This document shows positions 48,404 to 61,638 of a stretch of 64,000 bases of DNA, in pieces. Each line of letters starts with the position of its first letter. Within the stretch, counting starts at the first letter, position 1. The DNA comes from Oceaniglobus ichthyenteri (lineage in GTDB: Bacteria > Pseudomonadota > Alphaproteobacteria > Rhodobacterales > Rhodobacteraceae). Below the pieces are notes generated by a model. The model searched no databases. It was not told the DNA's origin and was given only the letters and a program-made list of their open reading frames with translations. The stretch lies in NCBI RefSeq assembly GCF_003057885.1, contig NZ_QAGK01000002.1, forward strand, positions 186,001 through 250,000, written 5' to 3'. The position numbers and the translations under genes were made by a program.

Positions 48404-49645
48404 TCAGGCCCGATGCCATTCCCGGTCACCATCAGTGTCTTTCACGCGGGTCGGCAGACCGATAGTGTCCAACACCGTGAACAACGGCTTTGGATCAAGC
48501 TCTTCAACGTTCAGCATTTTTCCGTGATCATAGGTGCCATCGGCAATCAGCAAGGCCACCGCAACCGGCGGCACACCGGCGGTATAGGAAATGCCCTGAC
48601 TTCCCACCTCTTGATACGCGTCCTCATGATCGGCCACGTTATAGACGAACACTTCGACATCCTGTCCGTCTTTTTTGCCTTTCACCAGATCACCGATACA
48701 GGTCTTGCCCGTATAATCCGGCGCCAATGTCGAGGGGTCCGGCAACACCGCTTTCACAACCTTCAATGGCACAACCTCAAGACCTTCGGCAGTGACCACC
48801 GGTTGTTCCGACAACAGACCCAGATTTTGAAGAACGGTAAAGACGTTGATGTAATGATCGCCAAACCCCATCCAGAACCGCACGTCGGCTTCGGGATAGT
48901 TGGCGGCCAGCGAATGCACCTCGTCATGGCCTGACAGATACGCCTTTTGTTTGCCGACCACGGGCAAATCCCATTCCCGGCCCACTTCGAACATCTTGTT
49001 TTCCTGCCACGCCCCCTGCTGCCAACTGTAAACGGTGCCGGTAAATTCGCGAAAGTTGATTTCAGGATCGAAATTGGTCGAGAAATATTTGCCATGGCTG
49101 CCGGCATTGATATCGACGATGTCGATGGATGTGACCTCGTCCATGAATTCATCCACCGCAAAGCGCGCAAACGCGTTGACCATGCCCGGATCAAACCCCG
49201 CCCCCAGAATCGCGGTCACGCCTGCCTTGGCGCAATCATCGCGCCGCTTCCATTCGTAATTCGCGTACCATGGCGGAGTTTCGCAAATCTTGGCCGGATC
49301 TTCGTGAATGGCCGTGTCGATATAGGCGGCACCCGTGCGAATACAGGCCTCAAGCACTGTCATGTTCACAAAGGGTGATCCCACATTGATCACGATTTGC
49401 GCAGCTGTGTCGCGCAACAGCTTTTCAACCGCGTCGCTGTCCATTGCATCAACGCTATGGGCCTTGAATATCCCGTCCTGTTTCATCGCCGCCTTGTCAT
49501 GGACGCTTTGAATGATCGCTTCGCATTTTGAAACCGTGCGGCTGGCGATATGCAGGTCACCCAGCCTGTCATTGTTCTGCGCACATTTATGCGCCACGAC
49601 CTGGGCGACGCCGCCCGCTCCGATGATAAGGACATTGCGTTTCAT
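48404..49645 (-). CDS. Carboxynorspermidine/carboxyspermidine dehydrogenase
   Basis: A 413-residue protein of the saccharopine dehydrogenase fold. NADPH-binding VLIIGAGGVAQVVAHKCAQN (5-24), IASRTVSKCEAI, YIDTAIHEDPAKICETPPWYANYEW and ILGAGFDPGMVNAFARFA are typical of the enzyme that reductively condenses aspartate semialdehyde with putrescine or diaminopropane. The start at 49645 gives the usual N-terminus; the open frame extends 22 codons upstream. Its partner, the decarboxylase, lies 31 bases upstream on the same strand, so both steps of the alternative spermidine route are encoded together. Confidence 0.93.
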   Translation of the reverse strand: MKRNVLIIGAGGVAQVVAHKCAQNNDRLGDLHIASRTVSKCEAIIQSVHDKAAMKQDGIFKAHSVDAMDSDAVEKLLRDTAAQIVINVGSPFVNMTVLEACIRTGAAYIDTAIHEDPAKICETPPWYANYEWKRRDDCAKAGVTAILGAGFDPGMVNAFARFAVDEFMDEVTSIDIVDINAGSHGKYFSTNFDPEINFREFTGTVYSWQQGAWQENKMFEVGREWDLPVVGKQKAYLSGHDEVHSLAANYPEADVRFWMGFGDHYINVFTVLQNLGLLSEQPVVTAEGLEVVPLKVVKAVLPDPSTLAPDYTGKTCIGDLVKGKKDGQDVEVFVYNVADHEDAYQEVGSQGISYTAGVPPVAVALLIADGTYDHGKMLNVEELDPKPLFTVLDTIGLPTRVKDTDGDREWHRA

Positions 49646-49676
49646 GTATTCAAGAGACCTCGTGTGTTTGACAGTG

Positions 49677-50771
49677 TCAGGAAAGCGCGGATTTGAAATC
49701 CGCATAGTCAAATTCGCGCACCTCGGTGATGGTGCCGTCCAGTTCGCGAATGGCGATGCCGGGCATTTTCACCCCGTTGAACCAGTTCTTCTTCACCATG
49801 GTATAGCCGGCCGCGTCCTGAAACGAAATCCGGTCGCCCGATTTTAACGGGGCGTCAAACCTGAACTCGCCAAAGATGTCACCGGCAAGGCAGGATTTGC
49901 CGCAAATCATCCATTCATGCGCACCGGTGTCGGGGGTGATTTTCGCCGGTTCGCGATAAATCAGCAGATCCAGCATATGCGCCTCGATCGAACTGTCGAC
50001 GATGGCCAGATTTTTGCCGTTATAAAGCGTATCCAGAACCGTCACCTCAAGTGTGGCGGCACCGGTGATCGCGGCCTCGCCCGGTTCAAGATATACCTGC
50101 ACGCCGAAATCATCACCAAACCGCCGCAGCCGCGCCGCCAATCGCTCCAACGGATAATCCGCACCGGTAAAGTGGATACCGCCCCCAAGGCTGATCCAGT
50201 TCATTTTATGCAATGTGTCGCCAAACCGGGTTTCGATCATCGTCAGCATTTCATCGAAGCGGTCGAAATCGTCATTTTCGCAGTTGTTGTGAAACATCAG
50301 GCCGGTGATCCGGTCGGCCACGGCGGCAATCTGTTTGGGGTCATGTTCGCCCAGACGGCTGAACGGGCGGGCCGGGTCGGCCAGATCGAACTCTGAGGTT
50401 GAGACACCGGGATTCACCCGCAAGCCGCGCACGTGGCCTTGGGATGCGGCATCAAACCTGTTCAACTGGCCGATAGAGTTGAAGATAACCTTGTCGCAAT
50501 TGGCCAACACTTCGGCAATTTCATGATCGGCATAAGCCACGGAATAGGCATGGGTTTCGCCCCCGAACTTTTCATAGCCCAATTTGACCTCGTAAAGTGA
50601 CGAAGAGGTCGAGCCATCCATATAGTCCGCCATGATGTCAAACACCGACCATGTGGCGAAACATTTCAATGCCAACAGTGATTTGGCCCCCGATGCCGTG
50701 CGCAGCCAGGCAATTTTTTCCAGGTTCACCAGAAGGCGTGACTTGTCGATCAGATAAAAAGGGGTGTGCAA
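49677..50771 (-). CDS. nspC: Carboxynorspermidine decarboxylase
   Basis: A 364-residue PLP enzyme of the alanine-racemase fold group (fold III). PLP Lys in LLALKCFATWSVF (about residue 36); SSSLYEVKLGYEKFGGETHAYSV; HNNCENDDFDRF with the histidine loop; LGGGIHFTGADYP; LEPGEAA; CGKSCLAGDIFGEF, carrying the active-site Cys. It removes the carboxyl group to give spermidine (or norspermidine). I start it at a TTG (50771), where GAGAGGA lies at good distance and the N-terminus HTPFYLIDKSRL matches the family; the ATG 21 codons upstream has no such support. Confidence 0.92.
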   Translation of the reverse strand: MHTPFYLIDKSRLLVNLEKIAWLRTASGAKSLLALKCFATWSVFDIMADYMDGSTSSSLYEVKLGYEKFGGETHAYSVAYADHEIAEVLANCDKVIFNSIGQLNRFDAASQGHVRGLRVNPGVSTSEFDLADPARPFSRLGEHDPKQIAAVADRITGLMFHNNCENDDFDRFDEMLTMIETRFGDTLHKMNWISLGGGIHFTGADYPLERLAARLRRFGDDFGVQVYLEPGEAAITGAATLEVTVLDTLYNGKNLAIVDSSIEAHMLDLLIYREPAKITPDTGAHEWMICGKSCLAGDIFGEFRFDAPLKSGDRISFQDAAGYTMVKKNWFNGVKMPGIAIRELDGTITEVREFDYADFKSALS

Positions 50772-50991
50772 GGAAAAATCCTCTCGGTGGGCCGATGGCG
50801 ATGGTTGGAAAAACTGAAGACCCACTATGACCAATTACCCCGGCCAATGCAATTCATGCACAGCGGCCCAAGCGGCGGAATTGGCAGCACTTTTGGTCAC
50901 ACCCCTTCACGTTAATGCGAAAGGCGCCCGTCCCGTGCGCCCTTGGGCACGGCAACGGGTCCTGTGCGAAATTGCGCTGACCGGTCCCGCC

Positions 50992-52320
50992 TTAGGCGGC
51001 GATGGCCCGGTTTATTGCGCCAGAAAGCTTGCCAACCAGTTCGCCGATCTGATCATCGGTGATGATGAACGGCGGCGCCAGCAGCACGTGATCGCCCTGT
51101 TGCCCGTCAATCGTGCCCGACATCGGATAACAGATCAGACCGGCGGCAAATGCCTCTTTCTTGATCCGCGCGGCGATGCCCCGGCCGGGATCGAACGGCG
51201 CTTTGGTTTCGCGGTCGGCAACCAACTCAACACCCCGAAAAAGACCGCGGCCGCGAATATCCCCGACATGGGCATGTTGGCCAAATTCATCCTGAAGCGC
51301 AGTTTGCAGTTTCAAACCTTGCGCCTGTACCCGGCTTAAAAGATCGCGGTCCAATATTTCGCCAAGCACGGCATTGGCCGCCGTCGCGGCAAGAGCGTGG
51401 CCCATATAGGTATGGCCGTGCTGGAAAAACCCCGATCCGGCCGCGATAGCGTCATAAATTGCGGCGCTGGTCAGCAAGGCGCCAATCGGTTGATACCCGG
51501 CACCCAGCCCCTTTGCGATGGTCACCATATCCGGCGCGACCCCGTCTTCGAGACAGGCAAACATATGGCCCGTCCGCCCCATGCCGCACATCACCTCATC
51601 AAGGATCAGTAAAACGCCGTGCCGGTCACAAATCTCGCGGATCCGGCGCAGATATCCGGGCACGGCGGGCACCGCGCCGCTGGTGGCGCCCACCACCGGT
51701 TCGGCGATGAACGCCATCACGGTTTCAGGCCCCAGACGCAGGATTTCGGTCTCAAGTTCGTTTGCAACCCGCAAACCATAGGTTTCGGGCGATTCACCAT
51801 CGTGGCGATCACGGTATTCGTAACAAGGGCTGATGTGGCTTGTGTCGGCCAACAGCGGCGCAAACTGCGCCCGGCGCCATGCATTGCCCCCGGCCGCAAG
51901 CGCGCCCAAAGTATTGCCATGATAGCTTTGACGCCGCGCGATCACGCGGTGGCGTTCGGGTTGACCGATTTCCAGAAAATACTGCCGCGCCAGTTTCAAT
52001 GACGCCTCAACCGCCTCTGATCCGCCCGACACCAGATAGACCCGGTCAATCCCTTCGGGCGCGTTTTCGATCAAACGATCGGCCAGACGTTCGGCGGGTT
52101 CAGAGGTGAAAAAACCGGTATGGGCGAAGGCAAACTGGTCAATCTGCCCATGCAGCGCGGCGCGCACGGCAGCGTTGGAATGGCCAAGGCACGACACCGC
52201 CGCCCCCCCCGATCCATCCAGATAGCGTTTGCCATCGGCATCGATCAGATAGCACCCATCGCCCGCCACAGCAGTGGGCAACGCCCCCTTGGTCGAGCGT
52301 CCGAAAATATGTCCAGCCAT
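50992..52320 (-). CDS. Class III aminotransferase, possible diaminobutyrate transaminase of ectoine degradation
   Basis: A 442-residue omega-aminotransferase with YLVSGGSEAVEASLKLARQY (PLP phosphate region), RRQSYHGNTLGALA, LILDEVMCGMGRTG with the cofactor Asp, and the PLP lysine in TIAKGLGAGYQPIGA (about 270). It is five bases after the universal stress protein gene, so it is the last gene of the TRAP operon. Ectoine breakdown needs a class III transaminase for 2,4-diaminobutyrate, and doeA/doeB lie 10 kb away; this gene would fit. That role is inferred from context; substrate specificity in class III enzymes is not readable from these motifs. Confidence 0.85.
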   Translation of the reverse strand: MAGHIFGRSTKGALPTAVAGDGCYLIDADGKRYLDGSGGAAVSCLGHSNAAVRAALHGQIDQFAFAHTGFFTSEPAERLADRLIENAPEGIDRVYLVSGGSEAVEASLKLARQYFLEIGQPERHRVIARRQSYHGNTLGALAAGGNAWRRAQFAPLLADTSHISPCYEYRDRHDGESPETYGLRVANELETEILRLGPETVMAFIAEPVVGATSGAVPAVPGYLRRIREICDRHGVLLILDEVMCGMGRTGHMFACLEDGVAPDMVTIAKGLGAGYQPIGALLTSAAIYDAIAAGSGFFQHGHTYMGHALAATAANAVLGEILDRDLLSRVQAQGLKLQTALQDEFGQHAHVGDIRGRGLFRGVELVADRETKAPFDPGRGIAARIKKEAFAAGLICYPMSGTIDGQQGDHVLLAPPFIITDDQIGELVGKLSGAINRAIAA

Positions 52321-57025: not shown

Positions 57026-57715
57026 TTGATCTCTTCGCCGCTGAAACGTGAAACGATGAGCGCGCAAATCGTGGCGCTTTTACGGCGTGCGATTTTGACG
57101 GGTGAACTGACGCCGGGCGCGCAAGTGGTTGAAACCGCGCTGGCCGTGCGATTGGGCGCCAGCCGTGGGCCCCTGCGCGAAGCGATGCGCCAGTTGATCG
57201 ACGAAGGGCTTTTGGTGAACGTGCCCTATACCGGCACGCGCGTCGTCGATATTTCGGTACAGGATATCAACGATATTTATGCTATGCGCACCTGTCTTGA
57301 ACAGTTCGCCTTTGCGCAGATCTGGCCGCACCGCGACACGGATTTCACCGCCGAACTGGCCGCGCGCAGTGCCGCGCTTCACCATGCCATTGATCAGGCC
57401 GACGATGTGCGCGCCATCGAGGCCGAGCTTGACTTGCACGGTCTGGCTTATGAACGGGCGGGCAACCGTATCCTGCTGACCACCTGGACCGGGCTGCGCG
57501 GGCGATTGCAACTGTATTGGGCGGCGCACCACCGCGCCCACGGCCTGACCGGGCCGAAACGTGACAGCCACGATGCCTATATCCGTCTGGCCAAGGGCAA
57601 CAGCCTTGAGGCGATGCAGGCCGAAATTCACGACCACATGCGCCTTGGGCTGGAAACCACCAAAGCCTTTGTCGAATCCCGCACCCGGGCGCAGACGGAA
57701 CCACAGATTAAATAA
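57026..57715 (+). CDS. GntR-family regulator, FCD type
   Basis: A 229-residue regulator with an N-terminal winged helix (about 10-70, with QVVETALAVRLGASRGPLREAMRQLIDEGLL) and an FCD ligand domain (90-215), containing ELDLHGLAYERAGN and EIHDHMRLGLE with the expected histidines. Starts at TTG in this reading; an ATG ten codons later (57056) is possible but would leave a very short lead to the helix. It is 16 bases upstream of the binding-protein gene, so it lies in the operon it probably controls, and an inverted repeat lies upstream. It may also face the TRAP operon. Confidence 0.88.
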   Translation: MISSPLKRETMSAQIVALLRRAILTGELTPGAQVVETALAVRLGASRGPLREAMRQLIDEGLLVNVPYTGTRVVDISVQDINDIYAMRTCLEQFAFAQIWPHRDTDFTAELAARSAALHHAIDQADDVRAIEAELDLHGLAYERAGNRILLTTWTGLRGRLQLYWAAHHRAHGLTGPKRDSHDAYIRLAKGNSLEAMQAEIHDHMRLGLETTKAFVESRTRAQTEPQIK

Positions 57716-57731: not shown

Positions 57732-58559
57732 ATGAACCGACGCATGATGTTTGCGGCCGCCGTTGCGGCCACGTTGATCGGGATGGGCGCCAGCGCCCAG
57801 GCCCAGGACAGCACGATGGATCAGGTCAAGGAAAACGGCGTGTTGCGCGTGGGCGTGACCCAGGCGCCGCCCTGGTATTCCAAGGATGTGATGAGTGGCG
57901 AGTGGACCGGGGGCCTTGGCATTTCCATGGGTAAGGCAATGGCCGAAAACCTGGGCGTGACGTTCGAACCTGTCGAAGTGACGTGGGGCACCGCCGTTGC
58001 CGCCCTTCAGGCGAACCGGATCGATCTGATGTATGTGCTGGATGCCACCGACGAACGCCGTCAGGCCGTGGCCTTTCCCGAAACGCCGTTGCTGTATTAC
58101 TCGCTTGCCGTTTTGGCGCGCGACGAGTTGGAAATCACCGACTGGGCCGATCTGAACACCCCCGAGATCAGCATTTCAGTACCCCAAGCCACCAGCATGG
58201 ATGCCTTTGTGACCGAACACGCACCCGACGCCGATATTCAGCGGTTCCCGGGCAATGCCGAAGCCATCGCCGCGTTTCAGGCCGGTCGTGTGGATGCGGT
58301 GACGTTGTTTCACCCGCCGCTGATTGCTGCGCGCCAACGCCTTGGCGCAGGTCAGATCGTGGTGCCCAAACCGGTTGAATCGCGCCCCTCGTCGGTTGCC
58401 GTGCGCCAAGAGGCCGATACCGCCTTTGTCGATTGGGTGAACGAACAGATCGATGGATACTATACGTCGGGCCAGACCCAGCAGTGGTACGAGGATTTTC
58501 TGACCGAATTCGGGCTTGATCCGGCCAGCGTGCCCGCAATCATGCGCGAACGGCTCTGA
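57732..58559 (+). CDS. Amino-acid-type ABC transporter solute-binding protein (family 3)
   Basis: A 275-residue periplasmic binding protein with a signal peptide ending ASAQAQ. NGVLRVGVTQAPPWYSKD (about 36-53) is the family 3 opening, then GLGISMGKAMAENLGV and VTWGTAVAALQANRIDLMYVLDATDERR. It lacks the usual Asp-Ile after the GF of polar amino-acid binders (here GGLGISMG), so the ligand contacts may differ. AAAGGGAG precedes the ATG. Ectoine is a reasonable ligand given doeA/doeB downstream, but as I recall it EhuB of Sinorhizobium is not close to this sequence, so this is inference. Confidence 0.9.
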   Translation: MNRRMMFAAAVAATLIGMGASAQAQDSTMDQVKENGVLRVGVTQAPPWYSKDVMSGEWTGGLGISMGKAMAENLGVTFEPVEVTWGTAVAALQANRIDLMYVLDATDERRQAVAFPETPLLYYSLAVLARDELEITDWADLNTPEISISVPQATSMDAFVTEHAPDADIQRFPGNAEAIAAFQAGRVDAVTLFHPPLIAARQRLGAGQIVVPKPVESRPSSVAVRQEADTAFVDWVNEQIDGYYTSGQTQQWYEDFLTEFGLDPASVPAIMRERL

Positions 58560-58583: not shown

Positions 58584-59261
58584 ATGTATGAGTGGGATTT
58601 CACCCCGGTAATCCAGAATGCCGATCTGCTGTGGCAGGGGCTGGTGGGAACGCTGGCGATCACCGGCACGGCACTGGCCTTTGGGCTGCCGCTGGGTCTG
58701 ATGCTGGCCCTGGCGCGGTTGTCGCCGCGCCGCTGGCTGGCCTGGCCTGCGGGGTTCGTGATTGAATTTTTCCGTACGACACCGCCGCTTGTGCAACTGT
58801 TCTGGTTCTTTTTCGCCCTGCCGATTCTGATCGACATTCGGATGACGCCGTTCCTTGCGGCGGCGATCACCTTTTCAATCCAATCCTCGGCGTTTTTCGC
58901 CGAGGTGTTTCGCGCCGGTATCGTTTCCATCGAGCGGGGCCAATGGGAGGCCGCGCGCGCCATCGGCATGCAACGCAAACAGGCGATGCGCCGCGTGATC
59001 CTGCCCCAGGCGGTGAAACGGATGATCCCCGCCTTTACCGAACGCGCCATCGAGTTGATGAAAACCACAACGCTTGTGGCTACGGTTTCCTATGCCGATC
59101 TTTTGTATCAGGCCAATGAGCTGGCCCAGAAAACCTTTCGCCCGATCGAGGTATTTACCGCCACCGCGCTGATTTATTTCGTGGTGATCTTCGGGCTCAG
59201 CCTCTGTGTGCAGGCGATTGAGCGCCGCCTTGCCGTCAGCGGCGACAGCACGGTGCGATAA
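58584..59261 (+). CDS. Polar amino-acid-type ABC transporter permease 1
   Basis: A 225-residue HisM/GlnP-type permease with about five spans. ATPase-contact loop QWEAARAIGMQRKQAMRRVILPQAVKR-type (about 115-140; Gln-Trp-Glu-Ala-Ala) is complete. FFRTTPPLVQLFWFFFALPI is the conserved TM2 entry. One base separates its stop from the next permease's ATG. The two permeases probably form a heterodimer. Confidence 0.93.
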   Translation: MYEWDFTPVIQNADLLWQGLVGTLAITGTALAFGLPLGLMLALARLSPRRWLAWPAGFVIEFFRTTPPLVQLFWFFFALPILIDIRMTPFLAAAITFSIQSSAFFAEVFRAGIVSIERGQWEAARAIGMQRKQAMRRVILPQAVKRMIPAFTERAIELMKTTTLVATVSYADLLYQANELAQKTFRPIEVFTATALIYFVVIFGLSLCVQAIERRLAVSGDSTVR

Positions 59262-59262
59262 T

Positions 59263-59928
59263 ATGGAATACACTTGGGATTTCGGATCGGTCTGGATGTA
59301 CCGCGAAGCATTGTGGATCGGGCTGCTTAACACTCTGAAGATATTTGTGATCTGTCTGGTTGCCGGCCTGTCCTTGGGCCTGGCGATCGGGCTTGCCCGG
59401 TATTCGCCGCGCCGCTGGCTGCGTTGGCCTGCGGCCTGTTTTATCGAATTTTTCCGCAATACGCCGGTTCTGGTGCAGATCTTCTGGTTCTATTTCGCGT
59501 TTCCGATCCTGGCACCGTTTGAAATCACCTCACTGACTGCCGCCGCCCTTGGGATCACCCTTAATTCTGCCGCCTTTTCTGCCGAAATCTTTCGCGGCGG
59601 CATTCAATCCATCGATCCCGGCCAATGGGAGGCGGGGCGCGCCATCGGTATGCGCCACCGCGATATCATGCGCCGCATCATCCTGCCCCAGGCGGTGCGC
59701 CGGATGCTGCCCGCCCTGACCAATCGTGGCATCGAAATTTTCAAGATGACAACGCTGGCCTCGGCGATTGCCTATGCCGATGTGCTGCATCAGGCGCGGC
59801 TGATCGCCTCGATCAACTATAACCCGATTGAGGCCTATACCGTCGTCGCGCTGGTGTTCTTTGCTATCCTCTATCCCGTCGTGCGCGCCACCTATGCGCT
59901 GGAACGCCACATGGCCAAAGGAGACTGA
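59263..59928 (+). CDS. Polar amino-acid-type ABC transporter permease 2
   Basis: A 221-residue permease, clearly a paralogue of its neighbour: [20 protein letters not shown] and [27 protein letters not shown]-type loop. Both proteins start with M-Y/E-W-D-F segments ([17 protein letters not shown]), indicating tandem duplication. I start it at the ATG one base after the upstream stop; the open frame extends 19 codons into the previous gene. Confidence 0.93.
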
Positions 59929-59932
59929 GCCG

Positions 59933-60709
59933 ATGAGTGATGACCCGATCCTGCGCATCCGCGGGCTGCAAAAGTCGTTTGGCGACAATCACGTGCTGCG
60001 CGGCATGGATCTTGATGTGAAACAGGGCGATTGCATTGCGATCCTGGGCGCATCGGGGTCGGGCAAAAGCACCTTTTTACGCTGCCTGAACTTTATGGAA
60101 ATTCCCAGCGATGGTGAAATCATCCATGCCGGTAAAACCGTCGGCACCGCCCGAAATGGCAAGCCGCGCCTGTACCCCGAAGGCGAATTGACCAAGGTGC
60201 GCCAAAAGGTCGGCATGGTGTTTCAACAGTTCAACCTGTTCCCGCACATGACCGTTCTGGGCAATGTCACCGAAGGGCTGCGCATTGTGCAACGCATGGA
60301 CAAGACAGGCGCCGAAACGCGCGCGCGCGAAGAACTGGCGCGCGTCGGATTGGCCGAAAAGGCCGATGAATATCCCGCGCGTCTGTCGGGTGGTCAGAAA
60401 CAGCGCGTTGCCATCGCCCGCGCGCTGGCGCTTGCCCCCGATCTGATGCTGTTTGACGAACCCACATCCGCCCTTGACCCCGAATTGGTGGGCGAGGTGT
60501 TGAATGTGATCCGCGGTCTGGCCGATGAAGGGCGCACCATGCTTTTGGTCACCCACGAGGTTGGCTTTGCCTATCACGTCGCCAACCGGGTGATTTTCAT
60601 GGCCGCTGGCGTGATTCAGGAAGAAGGACCACCCGAACAGGTGCTGAAAAACCCGAAAAACCCGCGCACGCAGGCGTTTCTTTCGCGCCACAAACAATTC
60701 GAATTCTGA
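59933..60709 (+). CDS. Polar amino-acid-type ABC transporter ATPase
   Basis: A 258-residue ATPase of the GlnQ/HisP group: Walker [10 protein letters not shown] (about 39-47), Q-loop [19 protein letters not shown], signature [15 protein letters not shown], Walker [15 protein letters not shown], switch [17 protein letters not shown] lies upstream of the ATG, four bases after the previous stop. A short insertion ([15 protein letters not shown]) follows the first strands, as in HisP-like proteins for basic amino acids. Confidence 0.94.
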
Positions 60710-60723
60710 ACAGGACCGATCCC

Positions 60724-61638
60724 ATGACCGATGCAACCCAAGCCAGCGCCCAAAGCTATGCCCACGACCCCCGCAACGACCGGGTCGAAGTTTACGTAAA
60801 CGGCCAGTTCTTTCCCCGCGACAAGGCAATGGTGCCGGTGTTTGACAGCGGTTTCGTGCTGGGCGATGGCGTGTGGGAGGGGCTGCGCCTGGTCAAGGGG
60901 CGGCTTCTGGCCATCGACGAACACATGGCCCGGCTCTATGAGGGTGCAAATTCCATCCAGCTGGATATCGGCATGGAACGCGCCGCACTGGTCGAGGAAA
61001 TCTGGAAAACCCTGCGCCATAATGACATGGAGGATGGGGTACATATCCGCCTGATGATTTCACGCGGTCTGAAATCCACGCCCAACCAGGATCCGCGCTT
61101 TATCATTGGCGCTGCAACCATCGTGATCGTGGCCGAATACAAGCAACCCAATGCCGGGCTGAAAGAACGCGGGCTGAAACTTCTGACCTCGACCATTCGC
61201 TGTTCGACGCCTGATGTGTTTGATCTGCGGCTGAATTCCCATTCGCGGCTAAACTATATTCAGGCGTTGATTCAGGCCATCAACATGGGCGCTGACGAAG
61301 CGCTGATGCTGGATGACCGGGGCTTTGTGGCCAGTTGCAATTCCACCAACTTCTTCATTATCCGGGGCGAAGAATTGTGGACATCCACCGCCACCACCTG
61401 TTTCAGCGGCATCACACGGTCCAAGGCGATCAAGCTGTGGCGTGACGCGGGCAAGCCAGTGTTTGAAAAGGATTTCACCCTTGCCGAAACCTACGCCGCC
61501 GATGAATCCTTTGTCACCGGCACCTTGGGCGGTATCACCCCTGTTACCGTGATCGACGGGCGCAAGGTGGGCACCGGTACGCCCGGCCCGGTCACCGGAA
61601 AAATCGCGGATCTGTATCGCGCTTATTGCGGCGAATAA
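60724..61638 (+). CDS. Class IV aminotransferase-fold protein with the PLP lysine replaced
   Basis: A 304-residue protein of the IlvE/D-amino-acid transaminase/PabC fold. Seen: VFDSGFVLGDGVWEGLR (39-55), HMARLYEGANSIQ (phosphate-binding Arg70), DEALMLDDRGFV (191-202) and VTGTLGGITPV. An ungapped alignment from memory to the usual DxxIKSLNYLN...GADEA block puts Asn171 (LRLNSHSRLNY) where the Schiff-base lysine belongs and Ser204 where the conserved Glu of the xEGxxxN block belongs. Asn209 of that block is kept. It may therefore not transaminate; it could use PLP differently or have another reaction. It is the last gene of the GntR/ABC operon, convergent with doeB. Confidence 0.85.
   Translation: MTDATQASAQSYAHDPRNDRVEVYVNGQFFPRDKAMVPVFDSGFVLGDGVWEGLRLVKGRLLAIDEHMARLYEGANSIQLDIGMERAALVEEIWKTLRHNDMEDGVHIRLMISRGLKSTPNQDPRFIIGAATIVIVAEYKQPNAGLKERGLKLLTSTIRCSTPDVFDLRLNSHSRLNYIQALIQAINMGADEALMLDDRGFVASCNSTNFFIIRGEELWTSTATTCFSGITRSKAIKLWRDAGKPVFEKDFTLAETYAADESFVTGTLGGITPVTVIDGRKVGTGTPGPVTGKIADLYRAYCGE

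Follow-up and report, generated by a model that had tools for sequence, protein, structure and literature searches.

A class IV aminotransferase-fold protein without the Schiff-base lysine at the end of an ABC importer cassette in Oceaniglobus ichthyenteri

What does an aminotransferase fold do once the lysine that holds its cofactor is gone? The question is raised by a gene in a 64,000-nucleotide stretch of Oceaniglobus ichthyenteri DNA (contig NZ_QAGK01000002.1, positions 186,001 to 250,000; the whole stretch is called the window below). Its product belongs to a single-origin clade that has kept the fold, with asparagine in place of the Schiff-base lysine for pyridoxal phosphate (PLP) and serine or threonine in place of the glutamate at the pyridine N1. 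The gene and its two altered sites are as follows:

60724..61638, + strand: lysine-less class IV aminotransferase-fold protein, 304 amino acids (open reading frame (ORF), PF01063 and alignments)
61234..61248, + strand: former lysine site, residues 171-175, Asn-Ser-His-Ser-Arg (codons read, and alignment)
61333..61335, + strand: codon of Ser204, at the position of the conserved cofactor-contacting glutamate (codon read, and alignment)

The former cofactor site

The only Pfam domain in the protein is Aminotran_4 (PF01063; residues 49-276, E 3.3e-42), with a score of 145.3 bits against a curated cut-off of 28.5, which places the protein in this family and in its fold type IV. Nineteen NCBIfam models match it and none of the 19 reaches its cut-off, the best being PRK08320 with 246.3 bits against 363. 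Archaeal-type branched-chain aminotransferases (5mqz, 5cm0, 5e25; PRK08320) have the same fold at 36-37% identity by structural alignment and share the residues that we take to form the phosphate cup, but have Lys and Glu at the two positions that are Asn and Ser in the window protein. The phmmer alignment to these three chains is ungapped in the block; it matches Asn171 to the Lys of IKSLNYLN and Ser204 to the Glu of EGSGDN. An alignment with Lys-bearing relatives gives the same placement.

The nearest solved structure, an aminotransferase-like protein of Variovorax paradoxus (7z79, 2022), has Asn at the same site (query 171 is chain 174), and no difference from the window protein was seen in the compared stretches. 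This kind of protein thus already has a representative in the Protein Data Bank, whose depositors also made an N174K mutant (9j32, 2025). The open-licence PMC literature, outside which most subscription journals lie, gave us no paper on 7z79, on 9j32 or on any class IV protein lacking the lysine. The first-pass annotation, made from the letters alone, had put Asn171 at the Schiff-base lysine and Ser204 at the cofactor glutamate by an ungapped alignment, and all three comparisons agree with it.

Functional enzymes of the IlvE, DAT and PabC class have the Schiff-base lysine and the N1-contacting glutamate, in whose places stand Asn171 and Ser204. A likeness to the natural Ser204 is found in an engineered D-amino-acid aminotransferase, 1g2w, whose title gives E177S; by the numbering we assume, residue 177 is the cofactor glutamate, and 1g2w presumably keeps Lys145. 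The phosphate-binding positions, which we take to be an Arg, an I-T and a G-T, are present as R70, I230-T231 and G266-T267, and across the clade the presumed cup is kept at R70, G229, I/V230, T231, T265, G266 and T267. Set against the PLP contacts that we assume for Escherichia coli IlvE, the counterparts of the phosphate half (Arg59, Ile230-Thr231, Gly256-Thr257) are kept and those of the ring and aldehyde half (Lys159, Tyr164, Glu193) are replaced. The simplest reading would be a ligand with a phosphate-like group that forms no Schiff base to the protein. Ordinary transamination is unlikely, judging from sequence, because the subfamily has kept the fold without the Schiff-base lysine and the N1 glutamate, as the first-pass annotation had also proposed.

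A single clade with coupled replacements

Relatives were collected by similarity, not by residue. A contig search gave 38 loci (numbered with L below), from alpha-, beta- and gammaproteobacteria by record titles. A phylum sample gave matches in 41 of 398 genomes (the window's own included), all 41 carrying Asn and the last 11 read from fetched stretches, and a family sample of 198 genomes gave three further loci. To these were added 11 of 21 plasmid records as Asn-type and a twelfth, L130, as Lys-type, together with class IV proteins from the genome of the window and from 12 others; of one set of 48 matches among these, 30 were taken as loci. Plasmid records label members of the clade "aminotransferase class IV" or "D-amino acid aminotransferase". 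In viral contigs there were 171 pattern matches, none of them a relative. The final 124-row alignment leaves out two copies of the window (L042, L043) and two broken loci with stops or frame breaks, an Octadecabacter cassette (L037:5981-8424) and a Rhodospirillales gene (L038:526-1087); L031, incomplete and carrying Asn and Ser, was left out before residues were counted. The counted rows comprise 91 of Asn type (window included), 31 of Lys type and 1 of His type, the 91 not being de-duplicated: L114, on a contig of 1,027,058 bases, is very probably L020, whose contig has the same length.

Asn171 is present in 91 of 91 Asn-type rows, against Lys at the same column in 31 of 31 ordinary class IV rows, and residue 204 is Ser in 49 and Thr in 42 of the 91, against Glu in 31 of 31; the pattern is therefore not due to chance. 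His173, Ser174, Arg70, His107, Arg109, Gly229, Thr231, Thr265 and Gly266 are likewise each found in 91 of 91. As to the phosphate site, Arg70 is kept as had been claimed and Asn209 is not strictly so (Asn in 77 rows, His in 14). Another lysine at the site, which would have spoken against the first-pass proposal, was considered as a shared replacement and rejected: residue 175 is Lys in 42 of the 91, in other clades, but Arg in the window protein and in 49 members.

For the tree, rows were collapsed at 82% identity to 77 (53 Asn, 23 Lys, 1 His) and columns 171 and 204 were omitted. The Asn type occupies one side of a branch with a support of 100 in the Shimodaira-Hasegawa-like approximate likelihood ratio test (SH-aLRT), with one change of state. 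This is a quick tree with flagged long branches and an outgroup that does not form one side of a branch, and it gives no direction; we take Lys to have been lost, not gained, because it is general in class IV enzymes. By its Asn, Ser/Thr, N-S/T-H-S motif and single clade the family goes with 7z79, itself compared by alignment and outside the tree. The two losses at the PLP site, previously described as independent, travel together across one clade. In searches that cover part of the literature, we found no description of this family-wide coupling, of the single origin or of the change of partners reported below.

The loss of the catalytic lysine and the two broken loci among the 38 of the contig search could be taken for signs of a decaying aminotransferase gene. 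Against this stand the ratios of nonsynonymous to synonymous substitution (dN/dS) of 0.04-0.16 relative to nine relatives (dS 1.0-2.2, partly near saturation) and the motif in 91 of 91 members of one clade, and for the family we reject this explanation as hardly credible.

The single His-type row, L133 (L163:8154-9041, - strand), comes from genome G589 of the same genus, has His exactly at the lysine site and keeps the Glu. A Pot-type importer ATPase and a GntR gene flank it, and a Hydantoinase_B gene belongs to the same run. The tree makes it the sister of the Asn type with a weak support of 80; it is possibly a rare intermediate. Its type was found in 0 of 398 phylum and 0 of 295 family genomes at E 1e-65, weak negatives, as its own genome could not have been in the draws; a profile search of G589 recovered it.

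L133 bears on the idea that the clade still uses PLP or pyridoxamine phosphate (PMP), held by the phosphate cup, with His173 as the base. Such enzymes exist: ColD and E1, of another fold type, are PMP-dependent sugar 3-dehydratases without the Schiff-base lysine, in which His directly replaces Lys and an Asp is kept. By analogy, the retained positions of the presumed cup, the invariant His two residues past the lysine site and the His of L133 would suit a ColD/E1-like enzyme. The ring-binding half is lost, because the N1 Glu has become Ser/Thr in 91 of 91 rows and residue 175, Tyr in 22 of 31 relatives, has become Arg or Lys. Whereas ColD has its His at the lysine position itself and keeps Asp, the window protein has Asn there and its invariant His further on. 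We consider a cofactor-dependent enzyme of this type rather improbable.

The importer cassette and the neighbouring ectoine operon

The lysine-less gene closes a run of six + strand genes in which, if internal ATGs serve as starts, no gap exceeds 24 bases, in keeping with the operon with an amino-acid-type ABC importer that the first-pass annotation had described. The five genes before it are:

57026..57715, + strand: GntR/FCD-family transcriptional regulator, first gene of the cassette (profile matches)
57732..58559, + strand: substrate-binding protein of the ABC importer, family 3 (ATG at 57732 used; the listed ORF opens at 57561)
58584..59261, + strand: importer permease 1, amino-acid type (best model EhuC, below cut-off)
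59263..59928, + strand: importer permease 2 (ATG at 59263 used; best model EhuC, below cut-off)
59933..60709, + strand: importer ATPase, amino-acid type (ATG at 59933 used; the listed ORF opens at 59828)

The ATPase gene ends 14 bases before the lysine-less gene. The nearest solved chains to the binding protein are ancestral cyclohexadienyl-dehydratase constructs, and these single out no substrate.

On the other side, the end of doeB lies 28 bases away. This closeness, with EhuC as the best (below cut-off) NCBIfam model for both permeases, had made it conceivable that the protein modifies or senses an ectoine-derived amino compound within an ectoine region, as the first-pass annotation proposed. 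The genes doeA and doeB, identified by TIGR02993 and TIGR02994 above cut-off, lie on the opposite (-) strand and meet the lysine-less gene head-on. Past the window end the - strand continues with Asp/Glu-racemase-like (eutA-like), universal-stress and TRAP genes and a GntR/MocR-type, EnuR-like regulator (names by eye), and doeA and doeB belong with them to a separate ectoine operon that has a TRAP importer and a regulator to itself. They adjoin the lysine-less gene in 1 of the 44 loci of its clade, the window itself (some contigs end early). In its excerpted text, an ectoine review lists DoeA, DoeB, DoeD and DoeC for degradation and names no class IV protein (PMC5924519). Strand, operon content and adjacency speak against membership in the pathway, which we reject, and a role on ectoine-derived compounds is very unlikely. 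As the ectoine operon stands by itself and is convergent, the neighbourhood is read as accidental, and the gene probably does not serve ectoine degradation.

Two further groups of window genes may concern amino compounds. At 48404-50834 (- strand) a saccharopine-dehydrogenase-like gene (by eye) and a carboxynorspermidine-decarboxylase-like gene (NspC model, 399 against 409 bits, below cut-off) are possibly a polyamine pair. At 50992-52320 (- strand) a class III aminotransferase above the PRK07483 cut-off stands beside a universal-stress gene and a TAXI-type TRAP importer (by eye), which could be a separate amino-compound cluster.

Partners across the clade and proposed function

From the tree we named the clades A (with the window), B, C, D1 and D2, and each locus was placed in the clade of its best-matching tree row; flank lengths vary, some contigs stop early, and L128 duplicates L020. 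In clade A the lysine-less gene immediately follows the ATPase gene in 31 of 44 loci, although in L001 no more than a short piece of the ATPase is there, and a GntR gene lies within 6 kb in 26 of 44. ProC (7 of 44), CLC (13 of 44) and MmgE/PrpD (5 of 44) also occur within 6 kb, ProC and MmgE never together. The GntR/ABC importer cassette is patchily distributed and sometimes plasmid-borne. A ProC-type imine reductase stands inside or just behind the cassette at L119:2969-3805, L073, L008, L010, L013, L017 and L018, and the two ProC genes tested are both above the TIGR00112 cut-off. A Yoonia plasmid has the order MR/MLE-family gene, binding protein, two permeases, ATPase, "ornithine cyclodeaminase" and lysine-less gene; the best model for the cyclodeaminase is a pyrroline-2-/piperideine-2-carboxylate reductase (263 against a cut-off of 322, below). 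Importer and imine reductase thus occur together in two clades, in 7 of 44 loci of A and one of D2. On a Pseudomonas savastanoi plasmid (L117) the order is changed to ATPase, class IV gene, binding protein and permeases, with short FCD and chloride-channel genes and insertion sequences flanking both sides.

In clades B, C and D1 a different partner is common. A Sulfotransfer_5 gene (PF19798) lies within 2 kb in 4 of 5 loci of clade B, 14 of 14 of C, 12 of 12 of D1 and 1 of 16 of D2, and in 0 of 44 of A. The protein in clades C and D1 has about 240 amino acids (e.g., L033:8891-9622, + strand, and L090; 26 of 26 loci), and no solved relative of the L033 protein was found by sequence. Neighbours in the D2 genomes tested are varied (RND pump, PanE-like, ABC ATPase and others), with no common partner. 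In the tree A and B form one group (support 90) and C and D another (support 91), so that the Sulfotransfer_5 pairing may be the older state, by parsimony on one tree. Plant "branched-chain-amino-acid aminotransferase-like" proteins are probably fusions of Sulfotransfer_5 and class IV domains; a literature search on these yielded nothing usable. In 9 of the 12 fetched clade-D1 stretches mutS, argG, Sulfotransfer_5 and the lysine-less gene stand together. In the window's own genome (C34, L125:7543-8265, + strand) mutS and argG have an orphan Sulfotransfer_5 gene between them, and the class IV gene is missing from that site.

Tentatively, and with somewhat less than even confidence, we favour a lysine-independent cytoplasmic enzyme acting on an imported amino- or imino-acid-like compound, a ligand and a reaction that we infer. 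The clade lost the Schiff-base Lys and the N1 Glu together, kept the phosphate-binding half and fixed Asn-Ser/Thr-His-Ser-Arg/Lys. The window protein would act in the cytoplasm on a compound brought in by the ABC importer. An anionic group of the ligand, such as phosphate or sulfate, would sit in the old phosphate cup, and Lys chemistry would give way to the N171/H173/S174/R175 cluster. The step would probably lie upstream of, or parallel to, imine reduction or epimerisation, because some cassettes carry a pyrroline-5-carboxylate-reductase-type imine reductase or an MmgE/PrpD protein.

Several observations weigh against this proposal. In 13 of 44 clade-A loci the gene does not directly follow an ATPase gene; among them are three of the window's nearest relatives, with 85-88% identity (L002, L003, L006), which are without this importer in the flanks examined, so that the protein does not need it; L001 and L003 have an importer of another type nearby. 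ProC, CLC and MmgE are minority companions, none of them in the window's own cassette. The block around N171 has middling model confidence (mean predicted local distance difference test score, pLDDT, 72-74 over residues 161-180), and an invariant pocket might suit a non-catalytic binder just as well.

A pseudoenzyme, that is, a non-catalytic binder or regulator that senses or holds the imported compound or modulates the importer or, in other clades, the Sulfotransfer_5 partner, is also to be reckoned with, though we judge it less likely. It would fit the loss of Lys and Glu, the GntR regulator and importer adjoining in many clade-A loci, and the close Sulfotransfer_5 genes of clades C and D1, as expected for a partner. 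The aminotransferase fold does serve sensing in MocR/GabR regulators such as EnuR, which according to the same review excerpt are of fold type I with Lys and a DNA-binding domain (PMC5924519). In contrast, the window protein has one domain, PF01063, and no N-terminal DNA-binding domain. The companion genes are metabolic, and the polar N171, H173, S174, H107 and R109, invariant in 91 of 91, go beyond the usual need of binding.

Extended to the whole clade, the catalytic proposal becomes more doubtful: fold type IV would then contain a distinct catalytic type, whose Asn-Ser/Thr-His-Ser-Arg/Lys site would act on anionic amino or imino compounds, lysine-free and perhaps PLP-free, with Sulfotransfer_5 as its old partner and one branch later drawn into importer cassettes.

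Annotation routinely calls class IV proteins aminotransferases, and 41 of 398 genomes of the phylum sample carry this clade, without the two best-known PLP-site residues. The conserved neighbours, Sulfotransfer_5 on the one hand and GntR-ABC cassettes with imine reductase or MmgE/PrpD on the other, make the question of function testable. If the clade is catalytic, it would be a route for a PLP fold to other chemistry; if it is not, it would be a family of pseudoenzymes under strict conservation, with partners of two clear types.
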